Shown here: positions 37,741 to 46,528 of the stretch, piece by piece
Numbering within the stretch: position 1 is the first letter of the stretch
How the letters are laid out: every line of letters starts with the position of its first letter
Source of the DNA: Microbacter sp. GSS18
Lineage (GTDB): Bacteria; Actinomycetota; Actinomycetes; Actinomycetales; Microbacteriaceae
Assembly (NCBI GenBank): GCA_029319145.1
Contig: CP119753.1
Location: forward strand, 2,666,001-2,730,000
Length of the DNA: 64,000 nt
Reading direction: 5' to 3'
Position numbers and translations under genes: made by a program
Notes under the pieces: model-generated
What the model was told of the DNA's origin: nothing
The model's database searches: none
What the model saw: the letters and a program-made list of their open reading frames with translations, nothing else

Positions 37741-38769
37741 CTATGCGGCGGCCATTCGCCGCAGTTCCGGAATCACCTTGTCGCCGAGCAGCTTGATGGC
37801 CTCGACCTTCTGCGAGACCCCGGGCATGCCGAACGAGATGTGCTTGACGCCGGCCTCGATGAGCACGGCGCACTGATCGATCACCTCGGACGGCCCGCCG
37901 ACGAAGGCGAGCTCCATCATGCCGGGCGTCACGGCAGCCACCGCGTCCTCTTCACGGCCCTCGTTCAGCAGGGCTTGCACGTGCGCGAACTCGGCCGGAT
38001 CGAGCCCGCTGGACACGAGCGCGTCGGTCGAGAGCGAGCCGCTCATCATCGCGATGTGACGGCGCAACTCCGCCCGCGCCTGATCGGGCTCGTCCGAGAC
38101 ACCGCACCACACTCCGGCGGCGACGTCGATGTCGGCCATGTCCCGGCCGGCCTTGTCTGCCCCCACCTTCACGCTCTTGACGACCTCGAAGACGTACCTC
38201 GGCGGCAGTGCGAGGGCGATCACGCCGTCGGCGTAGCGACCGGACATCTCCAGCATCCTCGGCCCCATCGCCCCGACGTAGATCGGCACCGCGCGAGGGT
38301 GGTGCAGGTGAGCCGTCGCCGTCCAGGGCCCTCCCGCCAGCGTCTCCTGACTCAGGTCGCGCCCCTCGGTAAGCGCCCGGATCGCGAGCAGCGCCTCACG
38401 GGTGCGGGGCACGGGCTTCTGATGCGGAATGCTCGCCCACTTGTAGAACTCGTCGGACCCGGCCCCGATGCCGAGGACGAACCTGTCGTCCGACATCCAC
38501 TGCAGGCCCGAGGCGAACTGCGCGATCTGCCCGGGGTGCAGCGTCACCGGGTCGAGGACGCCCGAGGCGACCTTCAGCCGCTCGCTGGTCCACAGCATCG
38601 CCGTGATCGTCGCCAATCCCGCCGTGGAGAGGAAGTCGTTGCCGGCCCACACCATGTCGAATCCCGCATCCTCGATGAGTCGCGTGATCTCGATCAGACC
38701 CGACTTCCCGTCGGTCTCGATTCCGGCCACTCCGCGGATGCTGAAGGTGAGTTCGCCGACACTGTTCAC
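37741..38769 (-). CDS. LLM-class flavin/F420-dependent oxidoreductase
   Basis: This 342-residue protein is a luciferase-like TIM barrel of the Mer-like (methylene-tetrahydromethanopterin reductase) group. It has IEDAGFDMVWAGNDFL, SGVLDPVTLHPGQIAQFASGLQW, RFVLGIGAGSDEF and VPIYVGAMGPRMLEMSGRYADGVI. Such enzymes use F420 or FMN. F420 genes lie next to it, divergently. Its GTG start has GAGGAGA at good spacing, and the shared operator (site 3) is 66 bp upstream, which ties it to the tryptophan/aromatic regulon. Confidence 0.88.
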   Translation of the reverse strand: MNSVGELTFSIRGVAGIETDGKSGLIEITRLIEDAGFDMVWAGNDFLSTAGLATITAMLWTSERLKVASGVLDPVTLHPGQIAQFASGLQWMSDDRFVLGIGAGSDEFYKWASIPHQKPVPRTREALLAIRALTEGRDLSQETLAGGPWTATAHLHHPRAVPIYVGAMGPRMLEMSGRYADGVIALALPPRYVFEVVKSVKVGADKAGRDMADIDVAAGVWCGVSDEPDQARAELRRHIAMMSGSLSTDALVSSGLDPAEFAHVQALLNEGREEDAVAAVTPGMMELAFVGGPSEVIDQCAVLIEAGVKHISFGMPGVSQKVEAIKLLGDKVIPELRRMAAA

Positions 38770-38834
38770 GAGATCTCCTCTGTCGCGTGACGCCGCGCTG
38801 GACGCCGACGTTGGCTGATATGTCACAAGGCTAG

Positions 38835-38858
38835 CGTTCGTCGCAATTCCGACATGTT
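38835..38858 (-). promoter_or_regulatory. putative shared operator (site 3) upstream of the LLM gene
   Basis: The minus strand reads AACAT, 11 bases, GACGAACG, identical to site 1 in all defined positions. It lies in the 184-bp gap between the LLM gene and fbiC, so it could affect either. CATATC lies about 16 bp past GCGACG and is a possible -10 for the LLM gene. Confidence 0.65.
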
Positions 38859-38953
38859 TCGAGAATGGGTCGAGCGTGAAACCTCTGACGACCCGCGACC
38901 GATGCGCAACGGTTCCAGACGCCGCGCGCCCCGCTCGGTGCAAGACTGGTGCG

Positions 38954-41359
38954 GTGACACTGCTCGAGCCATCGCACGCGCAGCCCGCGACCATCGCAGA
39001 TCTCCTCGAACGCGCGGGCGCCGGCAAGACCCTGACGGCGGACGAGGCCGAAGCGCTGCTGGCCGCCGAGGGATCCGACTTCGAGGCCCTGCTCGAGACG
39101 GCTTCGGCCGTGCGCGACGCCGGGCTTGCGGCATCCGGTCGCCCGGGCGTCATCACCTACTCGCGCAAAGTCTTCGTCCCGCTGACCACTCTGTGCCGCG
39201 ACCGCTGCCACTACTGCGTGTTCGTCGACACTCCCAACCAGCTGCTGAAGAAGCACAAGCCGGCGTACATGTCGCCCGAGCAGGTTCTGCAGGTCGTGCG
39301 GCAGGGCCAGGCGCTCGGCTGCAAGGAGGCGCTGCTCACCCTCGGCGACCGCCCCGAGGACCGCTGGCCCGAAGCGCGCGCGTGGCTCGACGAGCACGGG
39401 TTCGCCTCGACCCTCGACTACGTCGGCCACATCGCGCGGCTCATCACCGCCGAGACCGGCATGCTCGCGCACCTGAACCCCGGCGTCATGCGCGAGGACG
39501 AGCTGCGGACACTGCGCCCGACCGCCCCGTCGATGGGCATGATGCTCGAGACGACGTCGCGGCGGCTGTACGACGAGCCCGGGCAGGTCCACTACGGCTC
39601 CCCCGACAAGGATCCCGACGTGCGCCTGGGTGTCATCGAGGACGCGGGGCGCGCCCGTGTTCCCTTCACCACCGGCATCCTCGTCGGGATCGGCGAGACG
39701 CTTCGCGACCGCGCCGAGTCGCTGATCGCGATCCGCGACGCCCACGACCGGCACGGTCACGTGCAGGAGGTCATCGTCCAGAACTTCCGCGCCAAGCCCC
39801 GGACCGCGATGCAGGGAGCACCGGATGCCGAGCTGCGCGAATACCTCGCCGCCGTCGCCGTCGCGCGGCTGGTGATGGGGCCGCGGATGCGGATCCAGGT
39901 GCCGCCGAACCTCTCGGACCCGGCCGAGCTCGGGCTCCTCGTGCGTGCCGGCGCCGACGACTGGGGCGGCGTGTCGCCGCTGACCGCCGACCACGTCAAC
40001 CCCGAGCGCCCGTGGCCGCACCTCGACGATCTCGCGCGCCTCACCTCCGACCTGGGCTTCGAGCTGCGCGAGCGCCTCACCGCGCACCCGGAGTACATCG
40101 CGGATCCGGACGGCTGGCTCGATCCCGCGATGCACGCGCCGGTCGCCGCGCTCGCGGACCCGGCGACGGGCCTCGCCGGGCGGCCCGGCGCGCAGAACTC
40201 CACGGATCCGCGCCGGCTCGGCGCCGAAACCGCCTCGCCGGTCCCCGCGCGCCCGGATCCGTGGACTTCTGCCCTGCCGCGGCCCGCAGCCTCGGACGAC
40301 CGCTCCGCGCGGCACCTCGCCGAGCGCGCGGCGGCCGACCCGCTGGCCCTCGACGACGCCGAGTGGGAGGCGCTGCTCTCCGCGACCGGCACCGGGCTCG
40401 AAGCCCTCGTCGAGACCGCCGACGACGTGCGCCGGTACACGGTGGGTGAGGCCGTGACCCTCGTGGTCAACCGCAACCTGACGTCGTCGGGATTCACGAC
40501 CGGCGTCGCCGCCGCGCCCGACCAGTTCACACTCGAGGACGCCGCCGCGATCGCCCGCGATGCCGTCGACCTCGGCGCCACCGAGATCTGCGTGCAAGGG
40601 CTCCTGCCCGAGACCGTCACACCGCAGGCCTACCTCGACATCGCCCGCGCCATCAAGAGCGCGACGCCCGGCATCCACCTGCACGCCTATCGTCCGCAGG
40701 ACGTGTGGGACCTCGCCGATCGGTCCGGCATCGACCTCGACGAGGCGCTCTCACGGCTGCGCGACGCCGGCGTCGACACCATGCCCGGCACCGGGGTGAA
40801 GGTGCTCAGCGAGCGCGTCCGCCGCCTCATCGCGCCCGGAGACCTCGAGATCGCACGGTGGATCGAAGGCATCCGCGCCGTCCACACCGCCGGTTTCCGC
40901 ACGACCTCGGTGCTCTTCTACGGCCACGTCGAGACCGCCGCGGAGCGCATCGACCATCTGCGCGCGCTCCGCGACATCCAGAGCGGCACCGGCGGCTTCC
41001 GCGAGTTCGTGCCGATCCCTCTGCCGGGCCCGGCCGGCGGCGTGCCGCTCGTGCCCGGGCGCACGGCGGTCGACGAGCACCGCGCCATGGTCGCCGTCTC
41101 GCGACTGCTGCTGTCGGGCAGGATCCCGCACATCCAGATCCCGTGGACGCGCGTCGGTCGCGACACCGCGGCGGTGCTGCTTCAGGCCGGCGGGGATGAC
41201 CTGGGCGGGACGCTGCTGGATGGCCGCGTCCGGCCCGAAACCGGTATCGAGCACGGCCAGGAGCTGCCCGTCGCCGTCGCGCGCGGCATCGCGGCGCGGC
41301 TGTTCCGGCCGTTCCGGCTGCGCACCACCGACTACCGCGACCCGGGAGCGACGGCATGA
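38954..41359 (+). CDS. fbiC: FbiC (CofG-CofH fusion) with CofH half lacking the iron-sulfur motif
   Basis: FbiC makes FO, the deazaflavin core of F420, from tyrosine and 5-amino-6-ribitylaminouracil. The CofG half has Cys81-x3-Cys85-x2-Cys88 (CRDRCHYC) for the [4Fe-4S] cluster. The linker holds an inverted repeat (about residues 413-440). The CofH half keeps VGEAVTLVVNRN (~500), ATEICVQG, a PGTGVKVLS block, TSVLFYGHVET, GGFREFVPIPL and GGDDLGGTLL. Where CofH normally has NVCYTGCRFCAF, it reads TSSGFTTGVAAAPDQ, with all three cysteines gone. QGLLPE replaces the usual QGGIHP. Total 801 residues, close to the family. The GTG start was chosen; the frame upstream includes an Arg-rich leader. Confidence 0.88.
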   Translation: MTLLEPSHAQPATIADLLERAGAGKTLTADEAEALLAAEGSDFEALLETASAVRDAGLAASGRPGVITYSRKVFVPLTTLCRDRCHYCVFVDTPNQLLKKHKPAYMSPEQVLQVVRQGQALGCKEALLTLGDRPEDRWPEARAWLDEHGFASTLDYVGHIARLITAETGMLAHLNPGVMREDELRTLRPTAPSMGMMLETTSRRLYDEPGQVHYGSPDKDPDVRLGVIEDAGRARVPFTTGILVGIGETLRDRAESLIAIRDAHDRHGHVQEVIVQNFRAKPRTAMQGAPDAELREYLAAVAVARLVMGPRMRIQVPPNLSDPAELGLLVRAGADDWGGVSPLTADHVNPERPWPHLDDLARLTSDLGFELRERLTAHPEYIADPDGWLDPAMHAPVAALADPATGLAGRPGAQNSTDPRRLGAETASPVPARPDPWTSALPRPAASDDRSARHLAERAAADPLALDDAEWEALLSATGTGLEALVETADDVRRYTVGEAVTLVVNRNLTSSGFTTGVAAAPDQFTLEDAAAIARDAVDLGATEICVQGLLPETVTPQAYLDIARAIKSATPGIHLHAYRPQDVWDLADRSGIDLDEALSRLRDAGVDTMPGTGVKVLSERVRRLIAPGDLEIARWIEGIRAVHTAGFRTTSVLFYGHVETAAERIDHLRALRDIQSGTGGFREFVPIPLPGPAGGVPLVPGRTAVDEHRAMVAVSRLLLSGRIPHIQIPWTRVGRDTAAVLLQAGGDDLGGTLLDGRVRPETGIEHGQELPVAVARGIAARLFRPFRLRTTDYRDPGATA
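40193..40271. repeat. inverted-repeat element inside fbiC (copy 1)
   Basis: The arms CAGAACTCCACGGATCCG (40193-40210) and its complement (40254-40271) match at 17 of 18 positions around a 43-bp GC-rich centre. It codes for the linker between the CofG and CofH halves and leaves the reading frame open. A second copy lies in cofC. Confidence 0.88.
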
Positions 41360-42837
41360 GCGCGCACGTCGAGATCGCCATCGTCGGTGCCGGGTTCGCC
41401 GGCCTCGGCATGGCCATCGCGCTCCGGCGCGCCGGTCGCGACGACTTCGCGATCCTCGAGCGAGGAGGCTCGGTCGGCGGGACCTGGCGCGACAACACCT
41501 ACCCGGGTGTCGCGTGCGACGTGCCCGCCCACCTCTACGGCTTCGCGAGCCACCCCAACCCCGACTGGTCGGGGCTGTTCGCGCGCGGCGACGAGATCCA
41601 CCGCTACCTGCGGGACGTCGCCGAGACCGAGCAGCTCGGCGAGCGCCTCCGCCTGGGCACGGCGCTCAGCGGCGCGGCATGGGACGACGAATGGGGCGTG
41701 TGGCGGCTCGAGACCTCGCGCGGGGCCCTCACCTCGGACGTGCTCGTCCTCGCGTGCGGCCGGCTCACCGAGCCGTCGATCCCCGACATCCCCGGGCTCG
41801 AGTCGTTTCCGGGTCCGATCTTCCATTCGGCGCGCTGGGACCACACGGCGGACCTCGCCGGCCTCAGGGTCGGCGTCGTCGGCACGGGCGCCAGCGCCGT
41901 CCAGCTCGTCCCCGAGCTTGCGCGCACGGCGTCGCACGTTGCGCTCTTCCAGCGGACGCCCGCGTGGATCGTCCCGCGCGATGCGCATCCCTATACGGAT
42001 GCGGACCGCGAGCGGTTCGCCACGCATCCCGGCGAGCTCGCGAGCCTGCGCGCCCGCCTGTACGCGGAGGGCGAGGCGCGCTTCGCGTCGCGCTCCGGCG
42101 ATGCCTCCGCCGCGCAGGCCGCTCGCGCGGTCGCACACGCTCACCTCGCCGCTCAGGTGGGCGACCCCGACCTTCGCCGGGCCCTGACGCCCGATTACGC
42201 CTTCGGCTGCAAGCGCGTGCTGCTCTCGGACGACTTCTACCCCGCGGTCGCCTCGCCCGCCGTGACGCTCGAAGCCTCGGCGCTCGCGGAGGTCGACGGC
42301 CGGACGCTCGTGTCGGCGAGTGGCGCGCGCCACGAGGTCGACGCGCTCGTCCTCGCCACCGGCTTCGCCACGACCCGACAGCCCTACGCCGAGTTGGTCA
42401 CCGGCGAGGACGGCGTCACACTCGACGAGCACTGGACACGCGGCATGACCGCGTTCGGGTCGACGGTGGTGTCGGGCTTCCCGAACATGTTCGTCCTCGA
42501 CGGACCCAACGCGGCCCTCGGCCACAACTCCTCCGTGCTGATGATCGAGGAGCAGGCGGCCTACGCCGTGCGGTGCCTCGTCCACCGCGATCGCACGGGC
42601 GAGCCTCTCCGGGTCGACCCGGCCGCCGAGGCCGCGTACACCGACGAGATCGCGGCCGCTGCGGCATCCACCCCGTGGATGACCGGCGGCTGCCGCAACT
42701 GGTACGTCGACGACCGGTCGGGGCGGCTGACGCTGCTGTGGCCGGGCACCGTCGACGCGTTCCGCGCGCGGCTCGCGCGCGCGGATGGATCCGAGTTCGC
42801 GCTCGCAGCCGCGGGCGCCGAGAAGGGAGCATCATGA
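41356..42837 (+). CDS. flavin-containing / Baeyer-Villiger-type monooxygenase
   Basis: This 493-residue protein has two Rossmann motifs, GAGFAGLG (11-18) and GTGASAVQ (~174), and the fingerprint FPGPIFHSARWD (~151-162), which follows the FxGxxxHxxxW(P/D) motif of type I Baeyer-Villiger monooxygenases. It uses FAD and NADPH. The ATG overlaps the fbiC stop (ATGA) and its stop overlaps the next start, so it is part of the F420 operon. No such enzyme is needed for F420 synthesis, so a linked F420-dependent oxidation pathway is inferred. Confidence 0.88.
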   Translation: MSAHVEIAIVGAGFAGLGMAIALRRAGRDDFAILERGGSVGGTWRDNTYPGVACDVPAHLYGFASHPNPDWSGLFARGDEIHRYLRDVAETEQLGERLRLGTALSGAAWDDEWGVWRLETSRGALTSDVLVLACGRLTEPSIPDIPGLESFPGPIFHSARWDHTADLAGLRVGVVGTGASAVQLVPELARTASHVALFQRTPAWIVPRDAHPYTDADRERFATHPGELASLRARLYAEGEARFASRSGDASAAQAARAVAHAHLAAQVGDPDLRRALTPDYAFGCKRVLLSDDFYPAVASPAVTLEASALAEVDGRTLVSASGARHEVDALVLATGFATTRQPYAELVTGEDGVTLDEHWTRGMTAFGSTVVSGFPNMFVLDGPNAALGHNSSVLMIEEQAAYAVRCLVHRDRTGEPLRVDPAAEAAYTDEIAAAAASTPWMTGGCRNWYVDDRSGRLTLLWPGTVDAFRARLARADGSEFALAAAGAEKGAS

Positions 42838-43847
42838 GCGTTCCGATCCGGTTCGGCTACAAGGCGTCGGCCGAGCAGTTCGGCCCCGCAGAGCTGCTGG
42901 ATTACGGCATCCTGGCCGAGGAGGTCGGGTTCGACTCGGTCTTCGTGTCCGACCACCTCCAGCCGTGGCTCCACGAGGGCGGGCACGCCCCGGCATCCAT
43001 TCCGTGGCTGGGCGCGCTCGGCGCCCGCACGTCGAAGGTCCTGATCGGCACCTCGGTGCTGACGCCGACCTTCCGCTACAACCCGACCGTCGTCGCGCAG
43101 GACTTCGCGACCCTCGGCGTCCTCAACCCGGGTCGCGTGATCCTCGGTGTCGGCACCGGCGAGGCGCTCAACGAGAAGAACCTCGGCATCACGTGGCCCG
43201 ATCCGCCCGAGCGCTTCCAGCGGCTCAAGGAGGCCATCACCCTCATCCGGCGTCTGTGGTCCGAGGACCGCGTGAACTTCGACGGCAACTTCTACCAGGC
43301 CAAGAACGTCACGATCTACGACAAGCTCGACCAGCCCGTGCCGATCTACATCGGTGCGGCCGGACCCGCCGCCACCCGCCTGGCCGGCCGGATCGCGGAC
43401 GGGTTCATCACCACGAGCGGCAAGAAGCGCGAGCTGTACACGGACACCCTGATGCCCGCGCTGCACGAGGGCCTCGACAAGGCGGGCCGCGCGCCCGACG
43501 CGATCGACACCCTGATGGAGATCAAGGTGTCGCTGGACGACACGGTCGAGAAGGCTCAGGAGAAGACGCGGTTCTGGGCTCCCCTCGCGCTCACGCCCGA
43601 CGAGAAGATGGGCGTCGACGACCCGATCGAGATGCAGCGCCTCGGCGAGCAGCTGCCGATCGAGCGCACCGCGTCCCGGTTCATCGTCTCGGACGACCCC
43701 GACGAGCACGTCGAGCGCATCGCATGGTACGTCGAGCTGGGCTTCCGCCACCTCGTCTTCCACGACCCCGGGCACGACCAGGAGACGTTCCTGCGCCGCT
43801 ACGGCACCGAGATCCTGCCGCGCCTGCGGGAGCGGTTCGGCGCGTGA
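42834..43847 (+). CDS. fgd: F420-dependent glucose-6-phosphate dehydrogenase-like enzyme
   Basis: This 337-residue LLM-type protein is close to mycobacterial Fgd1: FGYKASAEQFGP, SDHLQPWLHEGGHAP, GTSVLTPTFRYNPTVVAQ, VILGVGTGEALNE, TSGKKRELYTD, RFWAPLALT and HLVFHDPGHDQ. Fgd oxidises glucose 6-phosphate and makes reduced F420. The ATG overlaps the previous stop (ATGA) and the stop overlaps the cofC GTG. This gives the operon a source of F420H2. Confidence 0.92.
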   Translation: MSVPIRFGYKASAEQFGPAELLDYGILAEEVGFDSVFVSDHLQPWLHEGGHAPASIPWLGALGARTSKVLIGTSVLTPTFRYNPTVVAQDFATLGVLNPGRVILGVGTGEALNEKNLGITWPDPPERFQRLKEAITLIRRLWSEDRVNFDGNFYQAKNVTIYDKLDQPVPIYIGAAGPAATRLAGRIADGFITTSGKKRELYTDTLMPALHEGLDKAGRAPDAIDTLMEIKVSLDDTVEKAQEKTRFWAPLALTPDEKMGVDDPIEMQRLGEQLPIERTASRFIVSDDPDEHVERIAWYVELGFRHLVFHDPGHDQETFLRRYGTEILPRLRERFGA

Positions 43848-44569
43848 GCTCTGACGGGCCCGGGCCGAACTCCACGGATGCGCGGGGCGGCCCGCCCGAT
43901 CCGGGTGAATCCGCCGCCGGCCGCGCCGGATCCGTGGAGTTCGGCGCGGACCGGTGGGCGGTCGTCGTGCCGGTGAAGTCGCCGGAGCGCGGCAAGTCGC
44001 GTCTGGACGCCTCCGGAGTGGACCGGCGCGAGCTCGCCCGCGCGATCGCGCTCGACACCATCGCGGCGACGGCCGCCTGCGACGCGGTCGCCCAGGTGTA
44101 CGTCGTCACCGATGACGCACAGCTGCCCCTGCACGCGCACGACATCCCCGGCCTGCGCTTCGTGCCCGAGTCCGACGGCGCGCGGGGTCTGAACGGCGCG
44201 ATCGCGACCGGCGCGGCCCGCGCGGGAGAGCGGATGCCGCGGGCCGCTCTTCTCGGCGACGTGCCGGCGCTGCGGCCGGCGGATCTCGCGGCGGCGCTGC
44301 ACGTGGCGGCATTCGTGGATCGGGGTGTCGTGGCGGATACCGAGGGCACCGGTTCGACCCTGGTGACGGCGCGCGCCGGCGTCGCGTGGGACACCGCCTT
44401 CGGCACCGACTCGTTCGAGCGGCACCGCGCGCTCGGGTGCGAGCCGCTGGACGTGGCGCCGGAGTCCACGCTGCGCCGCGACGTCGACACGGCCGATCAG
44501 CTCCGCGCCGCCGCGGCACAGGGTCTCGGCCCCCGCACCGCTGCTCTCGTGCGGGAGCTGGTGCGCTAG
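43844..44569 (+). CDS. cofC: CofC/FbiD guanylyltransferase
   Basis: This 241-residue protein has the CofC start WAVVVPVKSPERGKSRLD, then VYVVTDDAQLP, DGARGLNGAIATGAA, ALLGDVPALRPADL and FGTDSFERHRALGC. It makes the lactyl- or phosphoenolpyruvyl-diphospho-guanosine used by CofD. The GTG start overlaps the fgd stop (GTGA). The first ~33 residues come from an inverted-repeat element and are not part of the normal domain. A later in-frame GTG (Val in VVVPV) could be the start, but it would cut the first strand. Confidence 0.92.
   Translation: MSSDGPGPNSTDARGGPPDPGESAAGRAGSVEFGADRWAVVVPVKSPERGKSRLDASGVDRRELARAIALDTIAATAACDAVAQVYVVTDDAQLPLHAHDIPGLRFVPESDGARGLNGAIATGAARAGERMPRAALLGDVPALRPADLAAALHVAAFVDRGVVADTEGTGSTLVTARAGVAWDTAFGTDSFERHRALGCEPLDVAPESTLRRDVDTADQLRAAAAQGLGPRTAALVRELVR
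43864..43945. repeat. inverted-repeat element inside cofC (copy 2)
   Basis: The arms GCCGAACTCCACGGATGCG (43864-43882) and its complement (43927-43945) match at 18 of 19 positions around a 44-bp centre. The core AACTCCACGGAT is the same as in copy 1, and the left arm encodes NSTD in both. It makes up the N-terminal extension of CofC. Confidence 0.88.
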
Positions 44570-45526: not shown

Positions 45527-46528
45527 TCACGCGTCCGCGGCCTTGAGGGCCCGCTCGGCGAGCGCGGCCGAGGCCTCGGCGTCGGTCATCCACAGCGGCG
45601 CAACGACCGGGCGGATGCCGAGCGCGGCCACGTCACCTGCCGACGCGGCGTCCTCCTCGGCGAGAAGCCACGCGTCGAGAAGGCCGCCCTGTGAGCGTGC
45701 GCCGTAGTGGGCGGCGACGGCGCCGGCCGAGGTCTCCACGCCGATCGCGGTGAGGCACACGTCGGCCATCCCGCGCACGACACGGCCGCCGATGATGGGC
45801 GACACGCCCACGACGGGCGCCGCGGCCTCGCGCAGCGCCTCACGGATTCCGGGGACGGCGAGGATCGGGCCGATCGAGACGACCGGGTTCGACGGGGCGA
45901 TCAGGACGACGTCCGCCGCGGCGATCGCCTCGGCGACGCCGGGCGCGGGCCGGGCCTGCTCGATCCCGGGGTTCTCGAAGCGAACCGGAGCGAGAGCGGC
46001 GCGGTGCCGTGTCCACCATTCCTGGAAGTGCAGGTCGCGCGTGTCATCGCCGTCGCGCACGATGACGTGCGTGTCGACCTCGGCGTCGGTCATCGGCAGC
46101 ATCCTGAGGCCGAGCGGCCAGCGACCGCCGAGGCGGGCGACCACCTCGGTGACCGACAGGCCGTCGCGCAGCCACCCCGTGCGGGCGAGGTGCGTGCCGA
46201 GGTCGAGGTCGCCGAGAGTGAACCACGGCCATCCGGCGCCCCACGCCTGAAGCTCGCCGCTCACCCGCTCGGTGTCGCCGTCACGGCCCCACCCGCGCCG
46301 CGTGTCGTTGACGCCCGCGAGCGCGTACAGGATCGAGTCGACGTCCGGCTGCAGCCGCACCCCCGACAGCCACAGGTCATCGCCGGTGTTGACGACGACG
46401 GTGAGGGCCCGCGCGGTGTCGTCGAGGCCGCGCGCCCGGAGCGCGCCGCGGACCCCCGCGACGAAGCGTGAGCCGCCGACGCCCCCGGCGAGCACGACGA
46501 CGCGGGGCGAGAGATCGGATGCCGTCAC
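45527..46528 (-). CDS. cofD: CofD/FbiA 2-phospho-L-lactate (PEP-type) transferase
   Basis: This 333-residue enzyme joins FO to the phospholactyl or phosphoenolpyruvyl group made by CofC. It has VVVLAGGVGGSRFVAG, VVNTGDDLWLSGVRLQPDVDSILYALAG, LGDLDLGTHLART, VLIAPSNPVVSIGPILAV and VGVSPIIGGRVVRGMAD. The GTG start overlaps the hemD stop (GTGA). The usual partner fbiB (CofE) is not in this window. Confidence 0.95.
   Translation of the reverse strand: MTASDLSPRVVVLAGGVGGSRFVAGVRGALRARGLDDTARALTVVVNTGDDLWLSGVRLQPDVDSILYALAGVNDTRRGWGRDGDTERVSGELQAWGAGWPWFTLGDLDLGTHLARTGWLRDGLSVTEVVARLGGRWPLGLRMLPMTDAEVDTHVIVRDGDDTRDLHFQEWWTRHRAALAPVRFENPGIEQARPAPGVAEAIAAADVVLIAPSNPVVSIGPILAVPGIREALREAAAPVVGVSPIIGGRVVRGMADVCLTAIGVETSAGAVAAHYGARSQGGLLDAWLLAEEDAASAGDVAALGIRPVVAPLWMTDAEASAALAERALKAADA

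Follow-up and report, generated by a model that had tools for sequence, protein, structure and literature searches.

The locus raises the question of how FO, the deazaflavin precursor of F420, could be made in a bacterium whose FbiC protein carries a CofH half devoid of the [4Fe-4S] cluster motif expected of a radical SAM enzyme. The window, that is, the whole stretch of 64,000 nucleotides that was analyzed, corresponds to positions 2666001-2730000 of a closed 4.03 Mb genome rated 100% complete. It contains fbiC with the following features (a CofH that lacks the motif is called Cys-less below):

38954..41359, + strand: fbiC, CofG half fused to a Cys-less CofH half, by TIGR03550 and TIGR03551 scores; GTG start at 38954 tentative
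39194..39217, + strand: intact CofG [4Fe-4S] motif C81-R-D-R-C85-H-Y-C88 (C81-x3-C85-x2-C88)
40268..41356, + strand: Cys-less CofH half, by profile scores, model and alignment; boundary approximate
40478..40525, + strand: 16-residue loop LTSSGFTTGVAAAPDQ in place of the canonical CX3CX2C segment
40595..40612, + strand: QGLLPE, canonically QGGIHP
40691..40693, + strand: R580, present in 54/54 Cys-less CofH; Ser in canonical CofH
40931-40933, + strand: class-switching site E660
41222-41224, + strand: class-switching site G757
41234-41236, + strand: class-switching site P761

The fbiC frame is open over its whole length (801 aa), the longest ORF beginning at 38876. The first-pass annotation had reported that CX3CX2C is lost from the CofH half and kept in the CofG half, and that QGGIHP is changed to QGLLPE; both observations were confirmed on the translated frame. 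The loop, counted there as 17 residues, has 16 upon recount; it lies between VVNRN (residue 504) and FTLED (525), and at this site canonical FbiC of Microbacteriaceae has INFTNVCYTGCRFCAFAQ..., the segment with CYTGCRFC. The sole Cys of the CofH half, C546, is common to canonical CofH. The frame is intact, as had been stated, and no alternative frame restoring the Cys residues is needed, since relatives have the same aligned gap. The CofG half exceeds its cut-off (TIGR03550, 470.2 bits vs 213.35), while the CofH half stays under the curated TIGR03551 cut-off of 374.1 (274.5 for the half alone, 311.3 for the whole protein), and the FbiC fusion model NF006687 gives 925.7 bits, below its cut-off of 1018. 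As the curated models give a sub-threshold CofH, annotation may call this step present or absent, either of which would be misleading. The CofH_C region is present (PF19288, 33.9 for the half and 35.7 for the whole protein; cut-off 27), and the radical SAM family PF04055 matches the CofH half from profile position 25 on (39.6; cut-off 29.5); a standalone Cys-less CofH (L161) is under both Pfam cut-offs (25.3 and 17.8). The Cys-less half was modelled with high confidence (pLDDT 91.1) as a barrel of the radical SAM type, with MqnE as the best structural match.

The same loss was found in many other genomes. All 58 genus and family loci collected first (L004-L061, the window's own included), 43 of which had been caught by one sequence pattern, are without the CofH Cys motif. 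In the comparison by position, CX3CX2C is present in the CofH half of 0/54 Cys-less and 66/66 canonical rows, the latter including near-copies, and in 120/120 CofG parts. FbiC matches were obtained in 103 of the 198 genomes of the window's genus and in 69 of 299 family genomes. The canonical CofH motif, written as a degenerate DNA pattern, matched none of 196 genus genomes; such a pattern is able to find the motif, since a similar one matched 18/299 family genomes. The 20-kb neighbourhoods of 40 family loci comprise 32 Cys-less and eight canonical ones. Within the order, Cys-less CofH also occurs in three further families (f8, f9, and f15, which holds Kineococcus), and besides these in Promicromonospora, Gordonia, and f45, a family of the class. 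Of 394 genomes in the class search, 276 matched the CofH profile, with only the best 30 loci and 13 fetched stretches sorted into Cys-less and canonical.

Cys-less and canonical CofH have 53 strongly conserved positions in common, and four positions switch between the classes, being fixed or nearly so in Cys-less CofH. Lost from the latter are the QGG motif and the Glu of AAEIL, and 52 positions conserved at 98% or more in canonical CofH, the MEETIS stretch included, are kept in less than 20% of Cys-less rows; because of this loss of near-invariant positions, the substrate pocket of Cys-less CofH may be partly different. Cys-less CofH is under purifying selection, with dN/dS of 0.36 in the CofH half vs 0.27 in CofG. 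In the CofH tree, built from the 54 Cys-less and 28 canonical rows of the loci available at the time, the two classes lie on opposite sides of one branch (SH-aLRT 100%); some Cys-less branches are very long (L097, L089, L104). Thus the view of the first-pass annotation that the loss is not random decay is upheld by the shared branch, the common conserved positions and purifying selection, and its proposal to look for a clade sharing the loss under such selection has been borne out (54/54 on one side; 0.36). A sequencing error or a pseudogene, the chance of which is practically nil, is refuted by independent genomes: the same loss is found in all 54 rows, selection is purifying, and the fold of the Cys-less half was modelled with confidence.

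A straightforward solution, also offered in the first pass, would be a separate CofH making FO. Within the reach of the family model, it can be excluded here: a profile search of the closed genome for another CofH matched only the CofG half of fbiC and a MoaA-type ORF, and none of ten named genomes with Cys-less CofH, their completeness being unstated, has a CofH match over the family cut-off. The MoaA-type ORF (L003), a weak match so classed on reading of its sequence, was rejected as a radical SAM stand-in. These searches reach CofH-family proteins, not radical SAM proteins unlike CofH; within this range, an undetected canonical enzyme is hardly to be expected, given the closed genome and the ten named ones. 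Since certain radical SAM systems occur in split form, a separate radical SAM protein might supply the CofH activity or lend its cluster in trans; nevertheless, in view of the search results just given and the absence of the canonical motif from the 196 genus genomes, we regard this as very improbable.

The observation made in the first pass was right, but it missed both the spread of the clade over several families and an accompanying gene for a flavin monooxygenase of the Baeyer-Villiger type (BVMO), located immediately downstream of fbiC (residues are aligned to those of phenylacetone monooxygenase, PAMO):

41356..42837, + strand: BVMO-type flavin monooxygenase gene; start overlaps the fbiC stop (ATGA)
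41476..41520, + strand: BVMO motif GGTWRDNTYPGVACD with D55, aligned to PAMO D66; position hand-counted in the alignment
41806..41841, + strand: BVMO fingerprint FPGPIFHSARWD
42214..42216, + strand: BVMO R287, aligned to PAMO R337; position hand-counted in the alignment

According to tblastn, 74 of 75 distinct Cys-less loci have a BVMO gene on the same strand, no more than 2 kb downstream, as against none of 69 canonical ones, three of which hold less than 2 kb of downstream sequence (153 loci in total, 144 after nine duplicates were dropped). The single Cys-less exception (L085) is a contig end, 154 bases past CofH, and a second contig of the same genome carries a matching BVMO at its start. 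As the CofH-BVMO linkage has one gene-tree origin, the 75 Cys-less loci are not independent. Among the family neighbourhoods, the downstream same-strand BVMO is found in 31/32 Cys-less and 0/8 canonical loci, and among 80 named loci BVMO is within the stretch for 26/26 Cys-less and 0/54 canonical ones. Loci L004-L061, which have short flanks and stand outside the 144-locus tally unless refetched, contain a BVMO match in 56 of 58 cases and none in two. Six f45 loci were chosen for a shorter-than-usual CofH match (990-1083 nt): five of them, with matches up to 1008 nt, are Cys-less, all with BVMO, and the sixth (1083 nt) is canonical without BVMO; these five are included in the linkage tally and absent from the trees. 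The gap between the CofH and BVMO alignments is 120 nt or less in 58 of 74 pairs; ten pairs are separated by 473-1190 nt, some of them with an alpha/beta hydrolase gene in between. In Kineococcus, family f8 and Gordonia, Cys-less CofH is a separate gene beside BVMO and hence not a passive remnant of a fusion.

Two other kinds of association were considered and dropped. The presence of any BVMO in a genome was rejected as evidence, since 257/299 family genomes have some match, and for this reason the analysis was based on linkage and clade. The gene for F420-dependent glucose-6-phosphate dehydrogenase (fgd) was tried as the linked partner; it is adjacent in most Microbacterium loci and often not elsewhere. 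The former adjacency would fit a BVMO that is an F420-linked passenger merely standing beside fbiC. However, BVMO is missing from all 69 canonical loci, adjoins Cys-less CofH even when there is no nearby fgd match and CofG is on the opposite strand, and has its partial correlation with CofH (see below), which makes a passenger quite improbable.

The closest solved relatives of the window BVMO are cyclohexanone and phenylacetone monooxygenases; the Foldseek match to 7v8o has an E-value of 4.2e-40 and a TM-score of 0.85, and all 50 matches listed are of the Baeyer-Villiger type. D55 and R287 are present in 53/53 linked BVMOs; titles of PDB entries name variants of PAMO Asp66 and Arg337 in studies of catalysis, and we take these to be the catalytic residues. 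In the FxGxxxHxxxW fingerprint, F, G, and H are found in 53/53 and W in 52/53 linked BVMOs, and the GxWxxxx[FY]P[GM]xxxD fingerprint in 73/73 BVMOs tested; the strict second fingerprint (final D, P or N) is found in 39/53 linked and 15/20 unlinked proteins. The BVMO tree places the 53 linked proteins on one side and 20 high-scoring unlinked family paralogs on the other, these 20 being most of the top unlinked matches, with two that score above the weakest chosen left out. PAMO converts phenylacetone to benzyl acetate; therefore, formation of a p-hydroxybenzyl ester is suggested for the linked BVMO. Two genomes without an FbiC match (L288 in G317 and L289 in G248) encode a BVMO about 51% identical to that of the window, falling in the unlinked group.

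The history of CofG is a different one. On the CofG tree, the Cys-less and canonical labels need four changes, and a single Cys-less clade is rejected (log-likelihood lower by 142.7, p-AU 0.00025, on a quick tree). Cys-less loci of f8 stand beside a canonical f8 member, those of the Kineococcus group beside a canonical group (with K. xinjiangensis, Mumia, Arsenicicoccus, and Luteipulveratus among its members), and Gordonia, on a long branch, among canonical Mycobacteriales; long branches are present in the CofH, BVMO and CofG trees alike. Pairwise distances of CofH and BVMO correlate with r of 0.77, or 0.63 as a partial correlation given CofG, whereas the partial correlation of CofG and BVMO given CofH is only 0.15 (n = 53 in each case); CofG distances also correlate with those of CofH and BVMO (0.65 and 0.57, respectively). 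Since the CofG partners of Cys-less CofH fall in different lineages, we infer that Cys-less CofH and BVMO entered several lineages as a module and displaced CofH, the resident CofG being kept. The strongest hint at function is that the module would do the job of CofH for CofG of different origin.

Several individual loci may be mentioned here. In Gordonia sp. ABSL49_1 (L223/L327), the order is CofH (Cys-less)-BVMO-CofG on one strand, its kin in Mycobacteriales having canonical FbiC. Kineococcus xinjiangensis (L216/L177, GTDB g122) has canonical fused FbiC, and in loci L161-L169 of g99, to which K. rubinsiae belongs, Cys-less CofH is a standalone gene accompanied by BVMO, providing a natural comparison inside one family. 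Locus L199, from the BOG_194 MAG labelled Acidobacteriaceae, has Cys-less CofH and BVMO; as it clusters with Promicromonospora, its contig may be mis-binned. Locus L210, from a MAG labelled Melainabacteria, is CofH-like and was counted as canonical without BVMO.

The first-pass annotation had left two further options, a scaffold or FO made in another way. Both stand, the second being favored, with the barrel still working. A Cys-less CofH serving only as a scaffold or CofG chaperone, with BVMO alone making the CofG precursor, would agree with the loss of the cluster, QGG, the Glu of AAEIL and the 52 canonical positions, and relaxed constraint would fit both the long CofH branches and the higher dN/dS of the CofH half compared to CofG. 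Still, Cys-less CofH keeps to BVMO, not to CofG, in gene order and distances, and 53 positions have remained near-invariant, with four new ones fixed or nearly so; a pure scaffold is thus rather unlikely.

Other genes of the F420 pathway were identified in the window:

42834..43847, + strand: F420-dependent glucose-6-phosphate dehydrogenase gene fgd (TIGR03554, 445.6 bits, cut-off 420); ATGA overlap with BVMO
43844..44569, + strand: cofC/fbiD (TIGR03552, 115.8 bits, cut-off 105); GTG start chosen by us; GTGA overlap with fgd
45548..46501, - strand: cofD/fbiA (TIGR01819, 316.8-317.4 bits, cut-off 257.45)

The four-nucleotide overlaps at each junction of fbiC, BVMO, fgd, and cofC (ATGA, ATGA, and GTGA) suggest a coupled four-gene operon. 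CofE is encoded outside the window, about 46 kb ahead of it; CofC, CofD, CofE, and Fgd are all over their cut-offs. Divergent from fbiC, within ORF 37741-39156 (- strand), is a gene for a luciferase-like (LLM) oxidoreductase, recognized by sequence reading only and possibly an F420 user. A module whose product is another deazaflavin or some unrelated metabolite, with FO either not made or taken up, could account for the four switched sites and the 52 lost canonical positions, but CofG, CofC, CofD, CofE, and Fgd are intact, partly in the same operon, and the module replaces CofH beside different CofG lineages; we find this explanation improbable.

Taken together, loss of the motif, genetic linkage, matching clades, co-evolution, the separate history of CofG, absence of a canonical CofH from the searches, and presence of the other F420 pathway genes argue that Cys-less CofH and BVMO have probably replaced the radical SAM reaction of CofH in FO synthesis, CofG keeping its own radical SAM step. 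The module would then supply the same adduct, 5-(4-hydroxybenzyl)-diaminouracil, to the resident CofG. The evidence speaks for the replacement of CofH as such, the chemistry being only proposed. Canonical CofH, as described in a 2021 review, forms a p-hydroxybenzyl radical from tyrosine and adds it to the diaminouracil, the product being oxidized (PMC8498797). In the proposed scheme, BVMO would oxidize a tyrosine-derived ketone, e.g., 4-hydroxyphenylpyruvate, to a 4-hydroxybenzyl ester, which would break down to p-quinone methide; the Cys-less barrel would bind the latter together with 5-amino-6-ribitylaminouracil, and polar attack by C5 would give the same adduct as CofH. This would be a two-electron equivalent of the radical addition and oxidation by CofH, at the cost of NADPH and O2 rather than SAM and an electron. 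We put this sequence of steps forward tentatively and consider it somewhat unlikely as written. In more general form, a second, oxygen-dependent and non-radical deazaflavin route to the key C-C bond, in which BVMO turns a tyrosine-derived ketone into a p-hydroxybenzyl electrophile and the barrel stripped of its cluster acts as a polar C-alkyltransferase coupling this to diaminouracil, is possible if doubtful.

Among known systems, canonical CofH (TIGR03551) is nearest: it forms the sister group, belongs to the same barrel family, has the same place beside CofG, and shares the near-invariant positions, while the Cys-less form has neither CX3CX2C nor QGG nor the AAEIL Glu, is under the curated cut-off, and has BVMO as a neighbor. 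Aminofutalosine synthase MqnE (PDB 6xi9, 6xig) is a radical SAM enzyme, unlike Cys-less CofH with no cluster motif. Type I BVMOs, such as phenylacetone (1w4x) and cyclohexanone (7v8o) monooxygenases, have the same fold, fingerprints and residues aligned to PAMO D66 and R337, but the linked BVMO is tied genomically to deazaflavin synthesis and stands apart from the 20 family paralogs chosen for the tree. HemF/HemN and AcsF/BchE are pairs of oxygen-dependent and oxygen-independent enzymes, in which likewise a radical SAM enzyme has an O2-using substitute; in contrast to them, here the old barrel is retained, with its cluster gone, beside the O2-using enzyme.

According to the 2021 review, FO is produced in all F420 producers studied through one universal mechanism that relies on two SAM-radical domains (PMC8498797). 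A second solution seems to exist for this step, and the module has the look of a natural exception, found in several families of actinobacteria; in many soil bacteria, one F420 radical enzyme appears to have been exchanged for an O2-using enzyme paired with a cluster-less relative of the enzyme lost. No description of the Cys-less CofH and BVMO module was found among the matches listed in open-licence literature, which is part of the whole literature. Retention of a radical SAM fold in its old pathway step after loss of the cluster would be rare, and the module yields a clear prediction, that FO synthesis needs BVMO and O2. The module may be relevant to FO production as well: in a 2025 paper, more FO was obtained under low oxygen, which according to its authors might reflect oxygen sensitivity of FO synthase (PMC11917521).

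Two minor observations concern neighboring enzymes. First, genes for alpha/beta hydrolases, which often accompany Baeyer-Villiger enzymes, lie, in some genera, between Cys-less CofH and BVMO, as in L082 (2686-3390), L090 (11100-11996), and L084 (11197-11850), the Pfam score being over the cut-off in L082 and L090 and under it in L084; in L197 and L202 such a gene was seen by tblastn only. Second, weak matches were obtained to TIGR04043 (MSMEG_0568 radical SAM; scan of A2 members) and TIGR04046 (MSMEG_0569 flavin oxidoreductase; BVMO scan), the names of which suggest another pair of neighboring radical SAM protein and flavoprotein.
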